From Shewanella japonica (GTDB lineage Bacteria; Pseudomonadota; Gammaproteobacteria; Enterobacterales; Shewanellaceae), in assembly GCF_002075795.1 (NCBI RefSeq), contig NZ_CP020472.1:1595001-1659000 (forward strand): DNA of 64,000 nt. Reading direction: 5' to 3'. Below are positions 1,051 through 53,504 of this stretch, one piece after another. A program made the position numbers and the translations under genes. Position 1 is the first letter of the stretch; every line of letters begins with the position of its first letter. Under the pieces are notes generated by a model, which was not told the origin of the DNA, ran no database searches, and saw only the letters and a program-made list of their open reading frames with translations.

Positions 1051-1937
1051 AAGTGTGGTTAGTTGGCGCTGAAGGCCAGTTAGGCAAGAGCATTATTGCT
1101 CACGTCAATGAGCATTGTGCGGTTTATAAGGCATCACTGCATTTAGTGTGCTCCTCAAAAAAAGACGTTGATATTTGTCATTTCCCGTCTGTATCAGATT
1201 TTGTCACTGAGCATTCTCCCGACATTATCGTTAATGCCGCTGCTTTCAGTGATGTAGAATCAGCTGAGAATAATTTAAAACGCTGTCAACAAGTCAACGT
1301 CACTGGCGTAGCTAATCTAACTAATGCAGCTAAAGCATTAGCGATTCCAATAATTCATATTTCAACGGATTATGTTTTTGATGGGAATAGTTCAGTGCCT
1401 TATATTGAAACTGACTCAACACACGCGCTTAATGTGTATGGGCAATCGAAATGTGAGAGTGAAGCGCTAGTTCAGCAAATATCCGACAAATATATTATCC
1501 TTCGTACAGCTTGGTTAGTAAGCTCTTTTGGGCGTAACTTCGCTAAGACTGTCATGTCTTTATCAAAGCAACATTCACAGTTAAGTATGATTTCAGATCA
1601 ACTAGGTTGTCCCACTTTTGCCGACGATTTAGCAACAACCATTTGTCATATAATACTGGCAATCGAAAAAGGTAAATCTGATTGGGGCATATTTCATTAT
1701 TGTGGCGATACAGCAATGAGCTGGTATGAGTTAACTGAGAATATCTTAGATGAAGCCGTGATTCAGCAAAAGATAACATCTAGGCCAGACGTATTTGCGA
1801 TAACCTCTGATGAATATTCAGCCGAAGCAATTAGGCCTAAATATTCTGTCATGAACTGTCAAAAAATACATGATATCTGGGGCATAGTTACCCCAGAATG
1901 GAAGGACTCTCTTAAACGATTGGTTCAAAATTTATAG
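1047..1937 (+). CDS. rmlD: dTDP-4-dehydrorhamnose reductase RmlD
   Basis: At 296 residues it has the usual RmlD length. It reduces dTDP-4-dehydro-L-rhamnose to dTDP-L-rhamnose with NAD(P)H. Visible are the N-terminal Rossmann motif WLVGAEGQLG, the ISTDYVFDG strand and the catalytic YGQSK (YxxxK) of the extended short-chain dehydrogenase family. The GTG at 1047 overlaps the rmlC stop (GTGA), so the two genes are translationally coupled; the GTG at 1017 would add ten residues that encode the rmlC tail in another frame. With rmlA and rmlB broken here, its substrate must come from copies elsewhere, or the pathway is dead. Confidence 0.92.
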   Translation: MKVWLVGAEGQLGKSIIAHVNEHCAVYKASLHLVCSSKKDVDICHFPSVSDFVTEHSPDIIVNAAAFSDVESAENNLKRCQQVNVTGVANLTNAAKALAIPIIHISTDYVFDGNSSVPYIETDSTHALNVYGQSKCESEALVQQISDKYIILRTAWLVSSFGRNFAKTVMSLSKQHSQLSMISDQLGCPTFADDLATTICHIILAIEKGKSDWGIFHYCGDTAMSWYELTENILDEAVIQQKITSRPDVFAITSDEYSAEAIRPKYSVMNCQKIHDIWGIVTPEWKDSLKRLVQNL

Positions 1938-2020
1938 AAGATGTATAAACTCATTGTTTGAATCGCGTTTATATATTTCATTTAATCTTTTTATAATTTT
2001 GCATCTTTAGATCAAAGGCA

Positions 2021-3385
2021 CTACTTCTTAACCATCTTCGCGACATACATTCCATCGCTGTTTGCTTCATATGGCCATACGGTAATATGCTCACTTTGCT
2101 GCTCTGTAAAAGGGTGAGTGCTTACTACTAAACTGAAGTCTTTATTGTTAGATAAAAATGCGTCTACAACGGCTTCGTTCTCTAAAGGTGATAATGAACA
2201 AGTAGCGTAAACAAGATGAGAGCCTGTTTTTACGGCTTTAGCACTACGACTCAATATGTCTAATTGCAAGGCAGGTTTATCATCCACACAACTTCTATCA
2301 TCAATCCAGCGCATGTCAGGATTTCTGCGCCAAGTACCAGTGCAGCTACAAGGTGCATCGACTAATACACCATCAAGGTAGCTCTCTGAGACAGGTAAAT
2401 TGTCAGACTTCCATTTAGCGATTGTAATGCCATCAAAACCTGCTCGTTTAGCGCGCTTGTTTAACTCTTCTAGTGCTTTTGTACGAATGTCTGATGAGGT
2501 AATCGACCCTGTTGAATTATTTTCAACGTCTTGCAGCATAAGTGAACGAAGTTGTAAGGTCTTGCCGCCAGCGCCACTGCACGTGTCCCACCATTGCTCA
2601 TTTGCTTTGGGCTTACACACATTGCCAATAACTTGAGATGCAAGATCTTGAATTTCAACTTGGCCATTTTTATACAGTTTTACGTCATTTAAGTTAATAC
2701 TTTTACTGCCTAAACTAATGGCATCACCAAAGTATTCGCACAAGCTTGCATCTATGCCATCTTGTTGTAATTGGGATACTGCTTTATCTGTGGCTAATTT
2801 TTGCACCCTTGCCCAAATAGGCGGTCGAGAGCTCATTGCCTCAACGAGTTTAAGTTGTTGCTCAGCTGACTCAATCGGGCAAACCTCCCAATACCAGTCT
2901 GGTAATAGTTGACTTGGCTTAACGGTTTTCCCAGTAAATACATTATTGAGTAACAGACTCTTTTCAATAACAGTGTAAGTATTCGCTTCGCCTGTGGCTT
3001 CGACATGTTCATCTATCACCGCTAATTGCTCTGGTGATAGCTGAGCAAAATGTTGCCAAGCTTCCGCAAAATTACGCCACATGTGTTGCTCTAACAGTGC
3101 ACAGCTACTGAGCATTGCGAACCAAGTTTGCTCATCGTGTTGTGAGCCTATTTGTTTAAGCCAGCCCCACCAACGAAATAGGCCGAATAACGTTTCGCGA
3201 ATGACTCTGCGATCTTTTGAACCATGCTTTTTGTGTTCACGAAAGTAATTAGCCACGATTCGGTCAGCGGGCATTTTAGTATCTAACACTTCATCAAATA
3301 ACATTTTGATGGTGGTTGAATAGCTCAAAGCACGTTTTTGTGCTGGAGTGGTGGCGATAAGGTTTGATTGTGGTGCTACTGGCAT
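2021..3385 (-). CDS. RsmB/NOP-family 5-methylcytosine RNA methyltransferase
   Basis: A 454-residue class I SAM-dependent RNA methyltransferase. The N-terminal half resembles the NusB-like/RsmB accessory region. The C-terminal half carries the SAM-binding DTCSGAGGKTLQL motif, DAPCSCTGTWRRNPD (motif IV with the PC pair) and ATCSLSPLENE (motif VI with the nucleophilic TC cysteine). The two cysteines define the m5C RNA methyltransferase mechanism. RsmB (C967 of 16S rRNA) and RsmF share the motifs, so the target base cannot be fixed from sequence. It is a single gene on the minus strand. Confidence 0.85.
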   Translation of the reverse strand: MPVAPQSNLIATTPAQKRALSYSTTIKMLFDEVLDTKMPADRIVANYFREHKKHGSKDRRVIRETLFGLFRWWGWLKQIGSQHDEQTWFAMLSSCALLEQHMWRNFAEAWQHFAQLSPEQLAVIDEHVEATGEANTYTVIEKSLLLNNVFTGKTVKPSQLLPDWYWEVCPIESAEQQLKLVEAMSSRPPIWARVQKLATDKAVSQLQQDGIDASLCEYFGDAISLGSKSINLNDVKLYKNGQVEIQDLASQVIGNVCKPKANEQWWDTCSGAGGKTLQLRSLMLQDVENNSTGSITSSDIRTKALEELNKRAKRAGFDGITIAKWKSDNLPVSESYLDGVLVDAPCSCTGTWRRNPDMRWIDDRSCVDDKPALQLDILSRSAKAVKTGSHLVYATCSLSPLENEAVVDAFLSNNKDFSLVVSTHPFTEQQSEHITVWPYEANSDGMYVAKMVKK

Positions 3386-3460
3386 GGCTGACTCAAGAGT
3401 GGCAAAGGTGACAAAGCATGTGTGTCACTTAAAAGTAATGGCATATTTTAGCATGTCTTT

Positions 3461-3505
3461 AAAATCGGTTGAATATCTATCCTACAGAGTATTCAACCGA
3501 GCAGT
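3461..3505 (-). terminator. Probable terminator of the Omp85-type gene
   Basis: An 11-bp perfect inverted repeat (3465-3475 with 3490-3500) has a 14-nt loop. Read on the minus strand, the right arm is followed by ATTTTAAAG, a short T-run. It lies 66 bp downstream of the barrel gene and about 80 bp upstream of the methyltransferase start, so it probably separates the two transcripts. Confidence 0.5.
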
Positions 3506-3566
3506 TAATGACAATGATATCGAAGGGTAAGGGTTTTAAAGATAGACGCTATCTCGAGTCACAAGG

Positions 3567-4940
3567 CTAAAATGGATGATCCACCATAACCCAAGCATTG
3601 GTACTCTCATCTGATTGCGCGACATCAAGCCTCACTACAATACCCGCTGTGAGGGCTCTTAACGACACTTCATAGTCATATTTGATGTCGGTGAGTAATT
3701 CGCTGGCAGTATAAGATTCACCCACTCTGCCAGCTTCAACAAATCCAACGAGTTGAAACCAGTCTAAACGTAAAAATTTAAGCCAATTCACATCTTCTAT
3801 TGGATTGTACTTGAAGGTGTAACGATACTCCGCTGTCGCATAAATAGAGGCTTTATCGTGAAAGCGATTATTATCAAATCCACGCATGCGATAAAATCCG
3901 CCTAATGAGGCACCTTCACTATAAGGGGCGTTATTATTTACCTTTCTGGCACCGGCTTCATCGTATTCAAGTTCCCAAGAAGGTGAATAGCCTGTCCAAA
4001 AATTCATAGCGAGTATTCGTTGTGATGCGTAATCAGATTCGCCAAAAGAAAAGTATTTACTGGCCTCGAACTCAATAAAAGTCCAAGAGTCAACGGATTC
4101 TAACCAACCTGAATCGTGAGATATTGCCACATATTGCTTGCTACCATAACTTGGATTGATTGAAAAATCGGTATTGTCATATAGTAGCCCAAGCTCAAGC
4201 GCATGAATGGTACCATCGAGCTCTTCATCCTCAAATTCGTAGCTCTCATAACGATTAAATTGTCTGAGTACGGCTACAGTTGCACCTGATTCAAATGGGT
4301 TCCATTTATCTCCGCCGGAAGGCTTTGACGTCAGTAAGCCATTCGTTAACTCGTAAGTGACTTGGCCTTTATCACGTGTAGCGCCTATTGGTAGGGCGTA
4401 TTCAAGTTTAATTTCCCACCAGTTTGATGAACCATCTGCTTGTAAAAACTGCTCATTCGACGAGTCATTACTACCAGGTAAAGGTGTATCAGCTGGGATA
4501 AAATTACTTGCGCCACCAGCGTAAGCCTTTTGTTGTGGGTAATAGCCTAAAAAGCCGTATACACTTAAAAAGAACCGCTCAGTTTTAGGGATTTTGTAAT
4601 TCCAGACTCCACCCCCTGCGCCATAACTGACATCCCCGCCGTACACAGTACCGCCAATTGTCATTTGCTCTTGGTGGTAACCACTGACCATAGCACCTAA
4701 GCCAATGTTTAAGCCCATAGAGTCCGTACTAAATACATAGGGAAGTAATAACTTTTCAGTACCAGTATTAGGCGTTTCTGAGCGATTGACTGCTGACTTT
4801 ACATTGGCTGAGGCAGCAAAAGTTGACGGGATAAATAGTAAGAATAAAGCGGAAGCGAATATGGTTAATACTCTTGTTTGATTCGTTAGGGTTATTAACC
4901 CGTCATAGCGGCGTTTTTTCATCATTAGCAGCCCTGCCAT
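3567..4940 (-). CDS. Omp85/BamA-like outer-membrane beta-barrel protein (D15 surface-antigen family)
   Basis: 457 residues with a long signal peptide (basic KKRR, a hydrophobic stretch ending PSTFAAS). The mature part is rich in alternating aromatic/polar strands, ends in Phe (VMVDHPF) as outer-membrane barrels do, and has the Omp85 signature RMRGFDNNRFHDKA (the L6 loop RGF motif) about 100 residues before the end. No POTRA domains are apparent between the signal peptide and barrel, which separates it from BamA and TamA. Its cargo is unknown; phospholipase-associated and standalone D15-type barrels are possible relatives. Confidence 0.75.
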   Translation of the reverse strand: MAGLLMMKKRRYDGLITLTNQTRVLTIFASALFLLFIPSTFAASANVKSAVNRSETPNTGTEKLLLPYVFSTDSMGLNIGLGAMVSGYHQEQMTIGGTVYGGDVSYGAGGGVWNYKIPKTERFFLSVYGFLGYYPQQKAYAGGASNFIPADTPLPGSNDSSNEQFLQADGSSNWWEIKLEYALPIGATRDKGQVTYELTNGLLTSKPSGGDKWNPFESGATVAVLRQFNRYESYEFEDEELDGTIHALELGLLYDNTDFSINPSYGSKQYVAISHDSGWLESVDSWTFIEFEASKYFSFGESDYASQRILAMNFWTGYSPSWELEYDEAGARKVNNNAPYSEGASLGGFYRMRGFDNNRFHDKASIYATAEYRYTFKYNPIEDVNWLKFLRLDWFQLVGFVEAGRVGESYTASELLTDIKYDYEVSLRALTAGIVVRLDVAQSDESTNAWVMVDHPF

Positions 4941-50446: not shown

Positions 50447-51076
50447 ATGGAACAGACTACTATGGCGGAATATCGTGCAGTGTACCTGACAGCAGAAGAT
50501 TTACGGGTGGCTGCGTCGATAATATATAACGCCTATCATGATGATCCGTTTTTCATTGAAGCCTTGTCCACGGCTAATAAAGCCAGTTACGAGCAAAAAT
50601 TACGTGCCGCTATCAGGGAAGAATTAACTGAATTATGGCAGCAAGAGCAACCTTTAATTGGCTGGTTTAATGGTGAAAGATTGATTGGTGTTGCGTGCGT
50701 GATTACTCATCAAGTGCCATTAGGTGAAAGCCGCTATTGGCATTGGCGTTTGAAAATGGTGCTGGGAACCGGTTGGAGCTCCACGCAAGCATTAATCAAC
50801 AAAGAGAATAGTATTTTAGAAAGCCTACCAAGTAATCAATATGGCATTCTGCAGTTTATAGCGTTATCGCCCATTGAACAGGGTAAAGGGAATGGCGCTA
50901 AATTGATTCACGCTGTGTTAAGTTGGTGTGATGACCAACCTGAACTCGATGGTATCGGCGTGTTTATTAATAATCCTAAACACAGTGAGTTATTTATCCG
51001 TGAGGGTTTTCAGCACCTTTCTCAACTAACGATCGGCACTGTAGATGGTGAAGTATTGATATATTCGAGTAAATAA
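50447..51076 (+). CDS. GNAT-family N-acetyltransferase
   Basis: 209 residues from ATG 50447 (ATG 50462 is a possible alternative; the TTG at 50384 is unlikely). The acetyl-CoA motif A is present as LQFIALSPIEQGKGNGAKLI (Q-x-x-G-x-G/A), with VFINNPKHSELFIREGF as motif B. Substrate unknown. Followed 57 bp later by a DUF962 gene. Confidence 0.82.
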   Translation: MEQTTMAEYRAVYLTAEDLRVAASIIYNAYHDDPFFIEALSTANKASYEQKLRAAIREELTELWQQEQPLIGWFNGERLIGVACVITHQVPLGESRYWHWRLKMVLGTGWSSTQALINKENSILESLPSNQYGILQFIALSPIEQGKGNGAKLIHAVLSWCDDQPELDGIGVFINNPKHSELFIREGFQHLSQLTIGTVDGEVLIYSSK

Positions 51077-51133
51077 CTCGGTTCGCAGTTTATATAGTGA
51101 GCGTATTGATTTAATCGCTAGGTAGGATGGAAA

Positions 51134-51457
51134 ATGAGCACGAAAAAATACCAAGACTTTAATTCTTTTTATCCTTTTTATTTATCTCAACATCAAGATG
51201 TAACATGCAGACGACTTCACTATATCGGTAGCGGAATTATTGTGGTCATGTTGATTATAGTGTTGTTATCACAACAATGGTGGCTTTTATGGACATTGCC
51301 CGTAATCGGTTATGGCTTTGCTTGGGTTGGTCACTTCTTCTTTGAAAAGAATAAACCCGCCACATTTGAGTACCCCTTTTATAGTTTACTTGCTGACTGG
51401 GTCATGTTTGCACAAATGTTAAAAAATAAACTCGGCCTCAAGAAAAACTCTGGTTAA
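51134..51457 (+). CDS. DUF962/Mpo1-like membrane protein
   Basis: 107 residues. An N-terminal FNSFYPFYLSQHQDVTCRRLHYIG block, two membrane helices (about 30-45 and 48-65), and GHFFFEKNKPATFEYPFYSLLADWVMF are the DUF962/YGL010w signature. The yeast relative Mpo1 is an Fe-dependent dioxygenase of 2-hydroxy fatty acids; HxxxG and ExNxP residues are conserved here. Confidence 0.85.
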   Translation: MSTKKYQDFNSFYPFYLSQHQDVTCRRLHYIGSGIIVVMLIIVLLSQQWWLLWTLPVIGYGFAWVGHFFFEKNKPATFEYPFYSLLADWVMFAQMLKNKLGLKKNSG

Positions 51458-51471
51458 GTGTTAATCAGGAA

Positions 51472-51489
51472 TGTAAGAGATCTCTCACC
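51472..51489 (+). promoter_or_regulatory. GacA/UvrY box upstream of the first CsrB-like RNA
   Basis: TGTAAGAGATCTCTCACC closely resembles the upstream activating palindrome of csrB in E. coli (TGTGAGAGATCTCTTACA type). It lies 158 bp before the -10-like TACAAT at 51647, in agreement with the distance in known UvrY/GacA targets. Confidence 0.85.
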
Positions 51490-51646
51490 TTACTGTAGGT
51501 TTTCATATTCTTTAATCGAGTTAATTTCTTTTATTTAATTTTTATGTTCTTTTAAAACAATAATTTAGTTGTTTTAGTTTGACGTAGGCTATTGTGAATA
51601 TTTTGTTTCATCCACTTTTTTCCATTTTTCTATTACATGATTTCAA

Positions 51647-51652
51647 TACAAT
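51647..51652 (+). promoter_or_regulatory. Candidate -10 box of the first CsrB-like RNA
   Basis: TACAAT, with no strong -35, as expected for an activator-dependent promoter. Transcription would begin near 51659. Located by its fixed spacing from the GacA/UvrY box. Confidence 0.5.
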
Positions 51653-51658
51653 AAAGTC

Positions 51659-52141
51659 ACTAAGCAATTAATTGAATGACTAAACAAATCGTTACAGGAA
51701 GTAACTTTTTAAAAAGTCAGTGAACAGTAATAGTAGTGCTTAGAAAGTATTTGGCGATTAACACTCAGGATGAGAGTTATTGATACGAATACATGTAATG
51801 ATTTTCAGGATGAAAGTAGGACACGCTCAAGGAGTGGGCAAAAGCTCAGTTAAGGATTAACTGAAACATGGATGACCCCAAGTCAGGAAGATATGGGTAG
51901 CAGGAAGCAAATACCAGGAAGGTAATTTTAGGAGTTAGATTCGGTCAAAAGGATTGACTGTTCAAAGGATTGAGAACTCAAGTATGGCTTAAAAGGCATA
52001 TACAAGGATATTGAGTAAAAAAGGAATAAGGGAGCAAGGAGCAAGACGATTCGCAAGGATGGAGCAGGGAGCACAACTTAGCAGGATGGCTAACAAAGCG
52101 TAAAACTGGCGCAACCTTACATGTTAGGGTTGCGCTTTTTA
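51659..52141 (+). ncRNA. csrB: CsrB/CsrC-family sRNA, copy 1 (CsrA-sequestering)
   Basis: No ORF, but about 21 GGA motifs, many as AGGA or CAGGAUG and several in loops of short hairpins (GTTAC-AGGAA-GTAAC at 51692; TTTC-AGGAT-GAAA near 51803). The 3' end resembles E. coli CsrB (GGAGCAGGGAGCA... then AGCAGGATGGCTAAC). A rho-independent terminator (52109-52135 plus T-run) ends it. Known role: the RNA binds many CsrA dimers through GGA motifs and relieves CsrA repression of translation. The start is inferred from promoter spacing. Confidence 0.88.
52109..52141 (+). terminator. Terminator of CsrB-like RNA 1
   Basis: An 8-bp GC-rich stem (52109-52116 with 52128-52135) and a T-run at 52136-52140. 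Confidence 0.85.
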
Positions 52142-52213
52142 TTATATGAGATATTCATTTGTTAAATATGTGAACAGCTTAACCGCTTCAAAAGTGCATT
52201 TGTCTACCCGATT

Positions 52214-52231
52214 TGTAAGAGATATCTCACA
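52214..52231 (+). promoter_or_regulatory. GacA/UvrY box upstream of the second CsrB-like RNA
   Basis: TGTAAGAGATATCTCACA, an 18-bp near-perfect palindrome of the GacA/UvrY type, ends 157 bp before the -10-like box at 52388. Confidence 0.85.
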
Positions 52232-52387
52232 AGAGATGTGAGAATAATCGCTTTTAAAATAGACTTACACTAAACGATTTTTTTAAGTTGTTGATAATTA
52301 TGGCTTTATGATGTTTGTTCGAAATTCGCAGTGTTGTTTTTTTGTTAATTTGCTGTTTTGTGCATATTTATTTATTCGTACATCTCT

Positions 52388-52393
52388 TAAAAT
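52388..52393 (+). promoter_or_regulatory. Candidate -10 box of the second CsrB-like RNA
   Basis: TAAAAT, spaced 157 bp from the second GacA/UvrY box; transcription would begin near 52400. No good -35 box is visible. Confidence 0.5.
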
Positions 52394-52399
52394 ATACCC

Positions 52400-52872
52400 A
52401 AGCAGTAAATGCACGAGAGAGATAATTTGTTCATCAGGATGATGATTAAGAATACACTTTCTCGACGACAGTAAAACAACCGTTATGGATAACGGCAGTG
52501 TCAAAGGATGATACTGACATCATTAAGATGAAAGGTTTTATTGTAGAAAAGGATTTTTAGGACATCAATAAAAGGATTTACGCTGTTATGGATAACAGTG
52601 ATTGCATTGGATGCAAATGATTGAATCATGGATGTCATGGAAGAAAACCAAGGACGAATTAAAGGACACGCTTAAGGATTTGAGCAGGCTCGGTCAAGGG
52701 ATAATCGAGTAAGAGGGACAGTACTTCAGTGTACAAGGAACATCAAGGATTGAATAAGGATAGCGCACGGAGCAAGTTAGACGCATGGATGGTGCAGGGA
52801 GCACAAAAATAGCAGGAAGGCTTAACAAGAGTACAAGAGGCCGCGGCAATTTATTGTCGCGGTCTTTCTTTT
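52400..52872 (+). ncRNA. csrC: CsrB/CsrC-family sRNA, copy 2 (CsrA-sequestering)
   Basis: About 22 GGA motifs in 470 nt with no ORF. Its 3' third is similar to copy 1 (GGAGCAAG ... GCATGGATGGTGCAGGGAGCAC, then TAGCAGGAAGGCTTAAC), but the rest has diverged, so the pair is an old duplication. A GC-rich terminator (52839-52864 and T-rich tail) ends it. The csrC name is by convention for a second copy; it is not a strict orthologue claim. Confidence 0.87.
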
Positions 52873-52875
52873 GGA
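52839..52875 (+). terminator. Terminator of CsrB-like RNA 2
   Basis: Stem from about 52839-52849 with 52854-52864 (one G-U pair), 4-nt loop, and a T-rich tail (TTTCTTTT). Confidence 0.8.
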
Positions 52876-53117
52876 ATTTGTAAAGTTTGGACTCAAGTTT
52901 ATTTCGGCAAGGTGAAGCTTTAATTACCGTTATTTTTTACTTTTTAAAGGCGTGCATTGGTTCAGGCATTCTGGTGTAAGTGAAAACTCTACTTTACCTC
53001 TACTTTTACTATGACTTTTCACGCTTATTATCGTGTTTTTAAAAGTGTTAGCGACAGATATAAAAAACGCCATCAAAATGATAGCGTTAGTGATAATAAA
53101 GCGCATCAATGTTGTTA

Positions 53118-53504
53118 TTATCGGCATTTACCCGAATTGCAGCTCGAAGCACCGCCGCAGCCACCAAATTTGCCTTTAGCCATTGGTGCGTCCATCCATT
53201 CAGGCTCTGGGAAAATTGGCCAATTAATTTTTTCAATTTTTTTGCCGTGCATGTTGATATGACCACGGTATTGGTTAATACCGTCGGTGCTGAACTCAAA
53301 CATGAATTTAGCTCGCCAACATAACCCTGTTGTACCGCCAATACTCGGTTTTGCCGACTCCATTGCGATAGCAAGCAGTTGAACCTTCTGACCGGCGCAA
53401 GACTTTTCAGCATAACGGCGGCTGATCTCTGCCATTTGGCGTAATTGCCAAAAAAATGCAGCGACCACTACAACGGCAACGATTAATATAAAATCTGACA
53501 TCAT
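53118..53504 (-). CDS. DUF3301 membrane-anchored protein
   Basis: 128 residues. An N-terminal membrane helix (FILIVAVVVVAAFFW) is followed by EISRRYAEKSCAGQKVQLLAIA and YRGHINMHGKKIEKINWP, all DUF3301 hallmarks. The C-terminus is Gly/Cys-rich (GGCGGASSCNSGKC). Function unknown. Its start overlaps the DUF3549 stop by 4 nt, so the two genes are coupled. Confidence 0.82.
   Translation of the reverse strand: MMSDFILIVAVVVVAAFFWQLRQMAEISRRYAEKSCAGQKVQLLAIAMESAKPSIGGTTGLCWRAKFMFEFSTDGINQYRGHINMHGKKIEKINWPIFPEPEWMDAPMAKGKFGGCGGASSCNSGKCR

Follow-up and report, generated by a model that had tools for sequence, protein, structure and literature searches.

The closest described system is the csrB1/csrB2 pair of Shewanella oneidensis. 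As described in PMC3171408, both RNAs are detected by Northern blot, their level is more than 100-fold lower in barA/uvrY mutants, and boxes lie upstream, the consensus TGTAAGN6CTTACA being stated there; csrB2 is about 10-fold more abundant than csrB1. The two genes of strain MR-1 are predicted there to be 420 and 421 bp long, with many AGGA/ARGGA motifs and a box each. They are separated by a transposase gene, and in S. putrefaciens CN-32 csrB1 and csrB2 are adjacent (PMC3171408). Either S. oneidensis copy is reported to restore siderophore synthesis in a double mutant (PMC11045786). E. coli K-12 has one csrB (b4408) at its locus, between syd and yqcC in the order queF-syd-csrB-yqcC-truC-yqcA. 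In the published accounts, UvrY is aided by IHF in binding to an 18-nt palindrome a long way upstream of this gene (PMC4682653), and CsrD is tied to CsrB turnover (PMC5027483). Sibling CsrB RNAs that antagonise CsrA, several per genome, are likewise described for Vibrio (multi-copy csrB; PMC6262261) and for Pseudoalteromonas (Pf1-3; PMC11882849), the copies lying, as described, at separate places.

The stretch of DNA analysed here (the window, 64 kb in all) differs from the Vibrio and Pseudoalteromonas cases in having a tandem pair at one locus. We put at about 95% the probability that this is the Shewanella csrB1-csrB2 pair, encoding two CsrA-sponge RNAs activated by UvrY. The reading draws on the anatomy, conservation and neighbourhood of the locus, on the partner genes and on the separate lineages of the two copies. 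In common with MR-1, there are two CsrB-type genes rich in GGA, each with a box, in a genome that also encodes CsrA, BarA and UvrY. Going by the published description of MR-1, the differences are that the window copies are adjacent and that their RNAs, at an inferred length of about 490 and 470 nt, are somewhat longer than predicted for MR-1. The shared locus and the separate upstream and downstream lineages are as expected for orthologues of csrB1 and csrB2. The novelty is low, because the pair is the orthologue of one already described in Shewanella (PMC3171408). What the sequence comparison adds is the old separation of the two lineages, an apparent loss of the upstream copy in some relatives, and CsrB genes enlarged in several relatives by amplification of an internal GGA module. 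Likely CsrA-titrating RNAs are thereby located in a genome where Rfam at default settings finds nothing in the window. With a two-gene design of long standing, an apparently lost gene and expansion of internal repeats all found among related species, the comparison also allows the question of why bacteria retain several CsrB genes to be tested.

Anatomy, probable regulation and family of the tandem pair

The pair lies in a gap (51458-53117) between an Mpo1-like gene (51134-51457, + strand) and a DUF3301 gene (53118-53504, - strand). The original prediction had placed two GGA-rich RNAs head to tail at 51659-52872, in a gap free of ORFs. No long ORF is indeed found inside the gap. The sole ORF of at least 60 aa fully within it has 68 aa and a TTG start (52298-52504, - strand), and the other gap ORFs (65, 83, 108 and 71 aa) straddle the right edge near the DUF3301 gene. 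The predicted span covers both RNAs, but omits the regulatory box of the upstream copy; with this box, the whole tandem unit runs from about 51472 to 52875. The features are as follows.

51472-51489, + strand: UvrY/GacA-like box of the upstream copy, TGTAAGAGATCTCTCACC, which departs from TGTAAGN6CTTACA at 2 positions and lies about 187 nt ahead of the inferred start
51647-51652, + strand: possible -10 element TACAAT of the upstream copy, the inferred start being near 51659
51659-52146, + strand: upstream CsrB-type sRNA gene, 21 GGA, terminator stem at about 52107-52137
52052-52096, + strand: conserved 3' module of the upstream copy, with GCAGGGAGCA and AGCAGGA hairpins
52214-52231, + strand: UvrY/GacA-like box of the downstream copy, TGTAAGAGATATCTCACA, which departs at 1 position and lies about 190 nt ahead of the inferred start
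52405-52875, + strand: downstream CsrB-type sRNA gene, 22 GGA to 52872, terminator stem at about 52837-52866, the 5' end of the gene being placed only to within tens of bases
52782-52828, + strand: conserved 3' module of the downstream copy

The predicted numbers of GGA motifs, about 21 and 22, proved exact: the + strand carries 21 in 51659-52146 and 22 in 52400-52872, and the opposite strand none in either element. Both counts lie above all 500 dinucleotide-preserving shuffles made of each copy (mean 12.2 and maximum 19 upstream, mean 13.3 and maximum 20 downstream). The highest count elsewhere is 10, scanning both strands with 450-nt windows in 10-nt steps and starts outside 51001-52999. In the predicted folds, the mean unpaired probability of GGA is 0.84 upstream and 0.78 downstream, against 0.43 and 0.42 for all bases. 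Predicted hairpin loops hold 11 of 21 GGA upstream and 11 of 23 downstream, where the stretch folded was 3 nt longer and so includes a 23rd motif. A first CsrB-family feature seen in both copies is thus the abundance of GGA, most of it in loops and single-stranded joints of the predicted fold. A second such feature, an intrinsic terminator with no coding frame, is also present in both; each copy has a stem followed by a T-rich run at its 3' end, as had been predicted, and a simpler terminator scan called that of the upstream copy alone.

The third family feature is the UvrY/GacA palindrome far upstream, again found for both copies. In the whole window, 20 boxes with up to 3 mismatches were counted, against 35 expected. 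This count does not exceed chance, so the boxes carry weight only by their position and conservation. A box with at most 2 mismatches is found ahead of the first GGA in 36 of 42 copies from the genus (those of the window included), compared with 1.7% of 4200 Markov samples, and the distance from box to first GGA is 193-195 nt in 16 of the 42. The TACAAT of the upstream copy aligns with ATACAAT in two of five relatives. A consensus scan called no sigma-70-like promoter at either inferred start.

Gene order and orientation in the window are as in E. coli: QueF, Syd, the pair, DUF446 (YqcC), a pseudouridine synthase and a flavodoxin, with extra genes added. The names truC and yqcA for the last two rest on Pfam family plus gene order. 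The likeness to E. coli K-12 csrB thus comprises the same place and orientation, a similar 3' module, and the 18-nt UvrY palindrome far upstream, as described in PMC4682653. Unlike E. coli, the window has two copies, and additional genes between syd and yqcC, including acetyltransferase-like, Mpo1-like, DUF3301 and DUF3549 genes. Two GGA clusters are found downstream of the Mpo1-like gene in all seven Shewanella-titled loci among the 80 loci listed. Of the named hits to the Mpo1-like protein, those with the highest identity (77 and 76%) are from Shewanella, and the best E-values belong to two Colwellia-type records at 68 and 65%.

The genome itself encodes one CsrA, a UvrY (404.9 bits) and a BarA (1329.4 bits), each above cut-off. 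From the accounts of S. oneidensis and E. coli, BarA would phosphorylate UvrY, and phosphorylated UvrY would turn on both csrB genes by binding the palindrome of 18 bp that lies about 190 bp ahead of each. The products would be two RNAs that are not translated and measure about 470-490 nt. Each would present some 20 GGA in hairpin loops and single-stranded joints and bind many CsrA dimers; by titrating CsrA, they would free the mRNAs that it represses. The two genes would stem from a duplication before the sampled radiation of the genus, with promoter regions and terminators of their own.

It is worth adding that the csrD homologue of this genome (805.7 bits) is broken by an in-frame TGA (L131, about 2179-2181, near G000:C1:502144), and that a csrD match without internal stop is found in 14 of 14 other genus genomes compared. 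Either a true nonsense mutation or an error in the sequencing could account for the TGA; RNA turnover may therefore differ from that in E. coli.

The default Rfam scan of the window gave no match. At a relaxed threshold, the CsrB model RF00018 matches the upstream copy with 52.6 bits (E 8e-13) and the downstream copy with 32.3 bits (E 1.1e-6; 2101 bases searched), spanning model positions 1-356 in both, and it is the top Rfam family for each by a wide margin. The covariance search proposed as a check thus found CsrB in both copies, but below the gathering score of 71 bits. This is treated as a matter of the cut-off and not as failure of a defining feature. In the seven Shewanella-titled loci, which hold 14 GGA clusters, none of 13 CsrB matches (E up to 0.001) reaches the gathering score. 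In a survey of 40 genomes (our own and 39 relatives), RF00018 matches were found in 34 and were above cut-off in 6; here 28 of 101 first-look candidates were scored, and only the weaker copy of our own genome was among the matches listed. The Rfam threshold for CsrB looks too strict for Shewanella.

An independent test was made with an nhmmer profile of 40 3' ends from 23 genus relatives, from which the two window rows were left out (a further model, R1, includes them). Within the 64 kb, this profile matches only the two copies (E 3.9e-27 and 3.3e-18, with matches allowed up to E 10). It also picks up csrB of E. coli (E 3.9e-9, the sequence set being small), whose 3' module resembles that of the window copies. 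When the whole genome was scanned with the 3'-end model, 13 matches were found at E up to 1, the pair scoring 116 and 87 bits and the third-best match 22 bits (E 0.004).

Other families were also considered. Among the matches listed, neither CsrC, RsmX/Y/Z nor any other family outscores CsrB at either copy; matches to PrfA, tsr31, GibS and similar Rfam families (E 2.8-9.6) were taken as chance. The original label of CsrB/CsrC family is borne out in its CsrB part, by Rfam, profile, boxes, neighbourhood and partner genes. The CsrC label is unneeded, both copies being of csrB1/csrB2 type.

Copy number and history in the genus

Trees were built from 42 copies in 24 genus genomes, those of the window included. 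In the tree of the 460-nt body, a single branch (support 90/33, present in 90% of bootstrap trees) sets the upstream copies apart. In the 3'-end tree, 18 upstream copies group with just two downstream ones (L009 and L025; split 95/94). The two window copies fall with the upstream and the downstream copies of other species, respectively. Two separate lineages, duplicated before the sampled genus radiation, are the most likely history suggested by these trees. An outgroup tree with four 3' ends (E. coli, L035 twice, and L038) gave no firm outgroup placement, and its bootstrap had not settled; the outgroup loci L032, L033, L034, L036, L037 and L039 had no profile match at E 0.01 and are absent from it.

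Among the matches listed for 129 genus genomes, the model has none in 3, one in 22, two in 91, three in 11 and four in 2. In this survey 26 candidates were scored per genome, not every match was checked for adjacency, and the counts of 22 and 3 are upper bounds. The 22 is not the true number of single-copy genomes, because four one-match genomes (G018, G124, G133 and G138) have a second GGA-rich cluster; one of the three genomes without a match (G130) is 52% complete. The upstream copy nevertheless appears to be missing in some relatives. At one locus (L172, in G091), the CsrB copies at 537-1166 and 3180-3681 are about 2 kb apart, which suggests an insertion separating them, comparable to the transposase gene of S. 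oneidensis MR-1.

The apparent absence of the upstream copy from part of the genus raises the possibility that one gene alone is the active sponge and the other a decaying duplicate. The six copies labelled single all group with downstream copies in both trees, and the 10-fold excess of csrB2 over csrB1 described for S. oneidensis (PMC3171408) points the same way. However, both window copies retain the GGA load, box, terminator and 3' module, 104 of the 129 genomes have two or more matches, and either copy is described as sufficient for siderophore synthesis in S. oneidensis (PMC11045786). We consider a decaying duplicate improbable, and two working CsrA sponges the better account.

The two copies were also predicted to have diverged apart from their 3' third. 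As a description this is right, and the tree implies that the divergence is old. Identity by thirds is 50, 43 and 62%, against means of 44, 43 and 43% in 40 simple shuffles; these values are not decisive alone, because the best of the 40 reached 75% in the last third. A firmer signal of similar 3' ends is a 47-nt block at 85% identity (52052-52096 against 52782-52828, E 4e-9). The copies also share a similar block of 17 nt where the UvrY boxes lie (E 0.005); both E values are from a single pairwise comparison. Recent gene conversion would fit with the strongest similarity between copies being limited to the 3' module and box, and the downstream copies L009 and L025 among the upstream ones in the 3'-end tree could reflect local conversion, or weak signal. 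In the window, however, each 3' end clusters with the copies that occupy its position in other species, and the 95/94 branch runs between the two clusters; the body tree also parts the upstream copies, and E. coli csrB has a similar 3' module. Conversion is thus slightly less probable still than decay, and the separate lineages in the tree lead us to regard the shared 3' end as retained and not recently homogenised.

Finally, it is very improbable that the GGA-rich stretches arose by chance, from base composition or through decay of a coding region: the sequence is A- and G-rich and nothing reaches the Rfam gathering score, but the GGA excess over every dinucleotide shuffle is strand-specific, the 3' module and boxes are conserved across the genus, and the gap lacks a long ORF.

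Enlarged CsrB genes among relatives

A repeat check of the two window copies found no internal tandem array in either. In several relatives, the downstream CsrB gene is enlarged by an internal tandem array whose GGA module measures 81-120 nt, and each such gene carries 37-57 GGA. These loci are L011 (G003), L157 (G107), L155 (G054), L156 (G065), L159 (G116), L170 (G052), L018 (G010) and L019 (G011). The array of G003 has 4.7 units of 97 nt and 54 GGA in the gene, and that of G107 has 5.8 units of 81 nt and 57 GGA. Among the matches listed in a literature search, no report of repeat arrays internal to csrB was found, which is weak evidence of their absence from the literature.

Large upstream elements were also seen. 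In L165 (G138), a GGA-rich element at about 1900-3260 on the - strand has 62 GGA in 1361 nt, with none on the other strand, and contains 5.7 copies of a 108-nt unit. About 300 nt upstream of it is a UvrY-like box with a single mismatch. In the stretch from box to element the scan reported two hairpins resembling terminators, and it reported none at the element's end, where a long-looped stem and T-run follow by eye. L026 (G018), one of the six labelled single, carries an upstream element at about 3090-4010 on the - strand, with 40 GGA over about 0.92 kb and 134-nt repeats. There is no Rfam CsrB match at E 0.01 inside either of these large elements.

Downstream genes have on average 37.1 GGA in 17 one-copy loci and 28.9 in 27 two-copy loci (Mann-Whitney p 0.0004, kinship ignored). 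Twenty loci were hand-picked for this comparison, 14 with a single model match and 6 others; L159 and L168 are truncated by contig ends yet scored as one-copy, and the genomes of L168 (G134) and L030 (G022) have two model matches. Sister sets, taken from the DUF3301 tree, give the following GGA counts.

Set 1: one-copy 57, 44, 41, 32 (L157, L156, L159, L154); two-copy 54, 37, 55 (L011, L018, L170)
Set 2: one-copy 37, 36, 34 (L022, L162, L160); two-copy 36, 35 (L169, L167)
Set 3: one-copy 27, 28 (L017, L030); two-copy 26, 19, 16 (L021, L161, L020)
Set 4: one-copy 29, 29 (L166, L013); two-copy 22, 26 (L000, L016)

The counts are alike in two of the sets and differ slightly in the other two. Compensation, in which a larger downstream copy would make up for a lost upstream one, is therefore only a suggestion. 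A broader and tentative idea, which we think rather doubtful, is that the genus may tune its CsrA-sponge capacity by two routes, namely keeping or losing the upstream copy, and growing or shrinking an internal array of 81-134-nt GGA hairpins. The second route would yield giant RNAs with about 37-62 GGA, which in some lineages might make up for a lost copy. If this were true, the window would represent the unexpanded two-copy state.

Two further arrangements were noted. In another family of the order (L033, in G024), a CsrB-type stretch at 1500-2260 on the + strand overlaps 10.8 copies of a 52-nt unit with 98% match; the RF00018 match at 1922-2259 has 78.5 bits, over the cut-off (70.8 bits in the 40-genome survey). 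In L034 (G031, at G031:C1:4533806-4536939), there are five consecutive CsrB matches on the same strand in about 3.1 kb, all above the Rfam cut-off.
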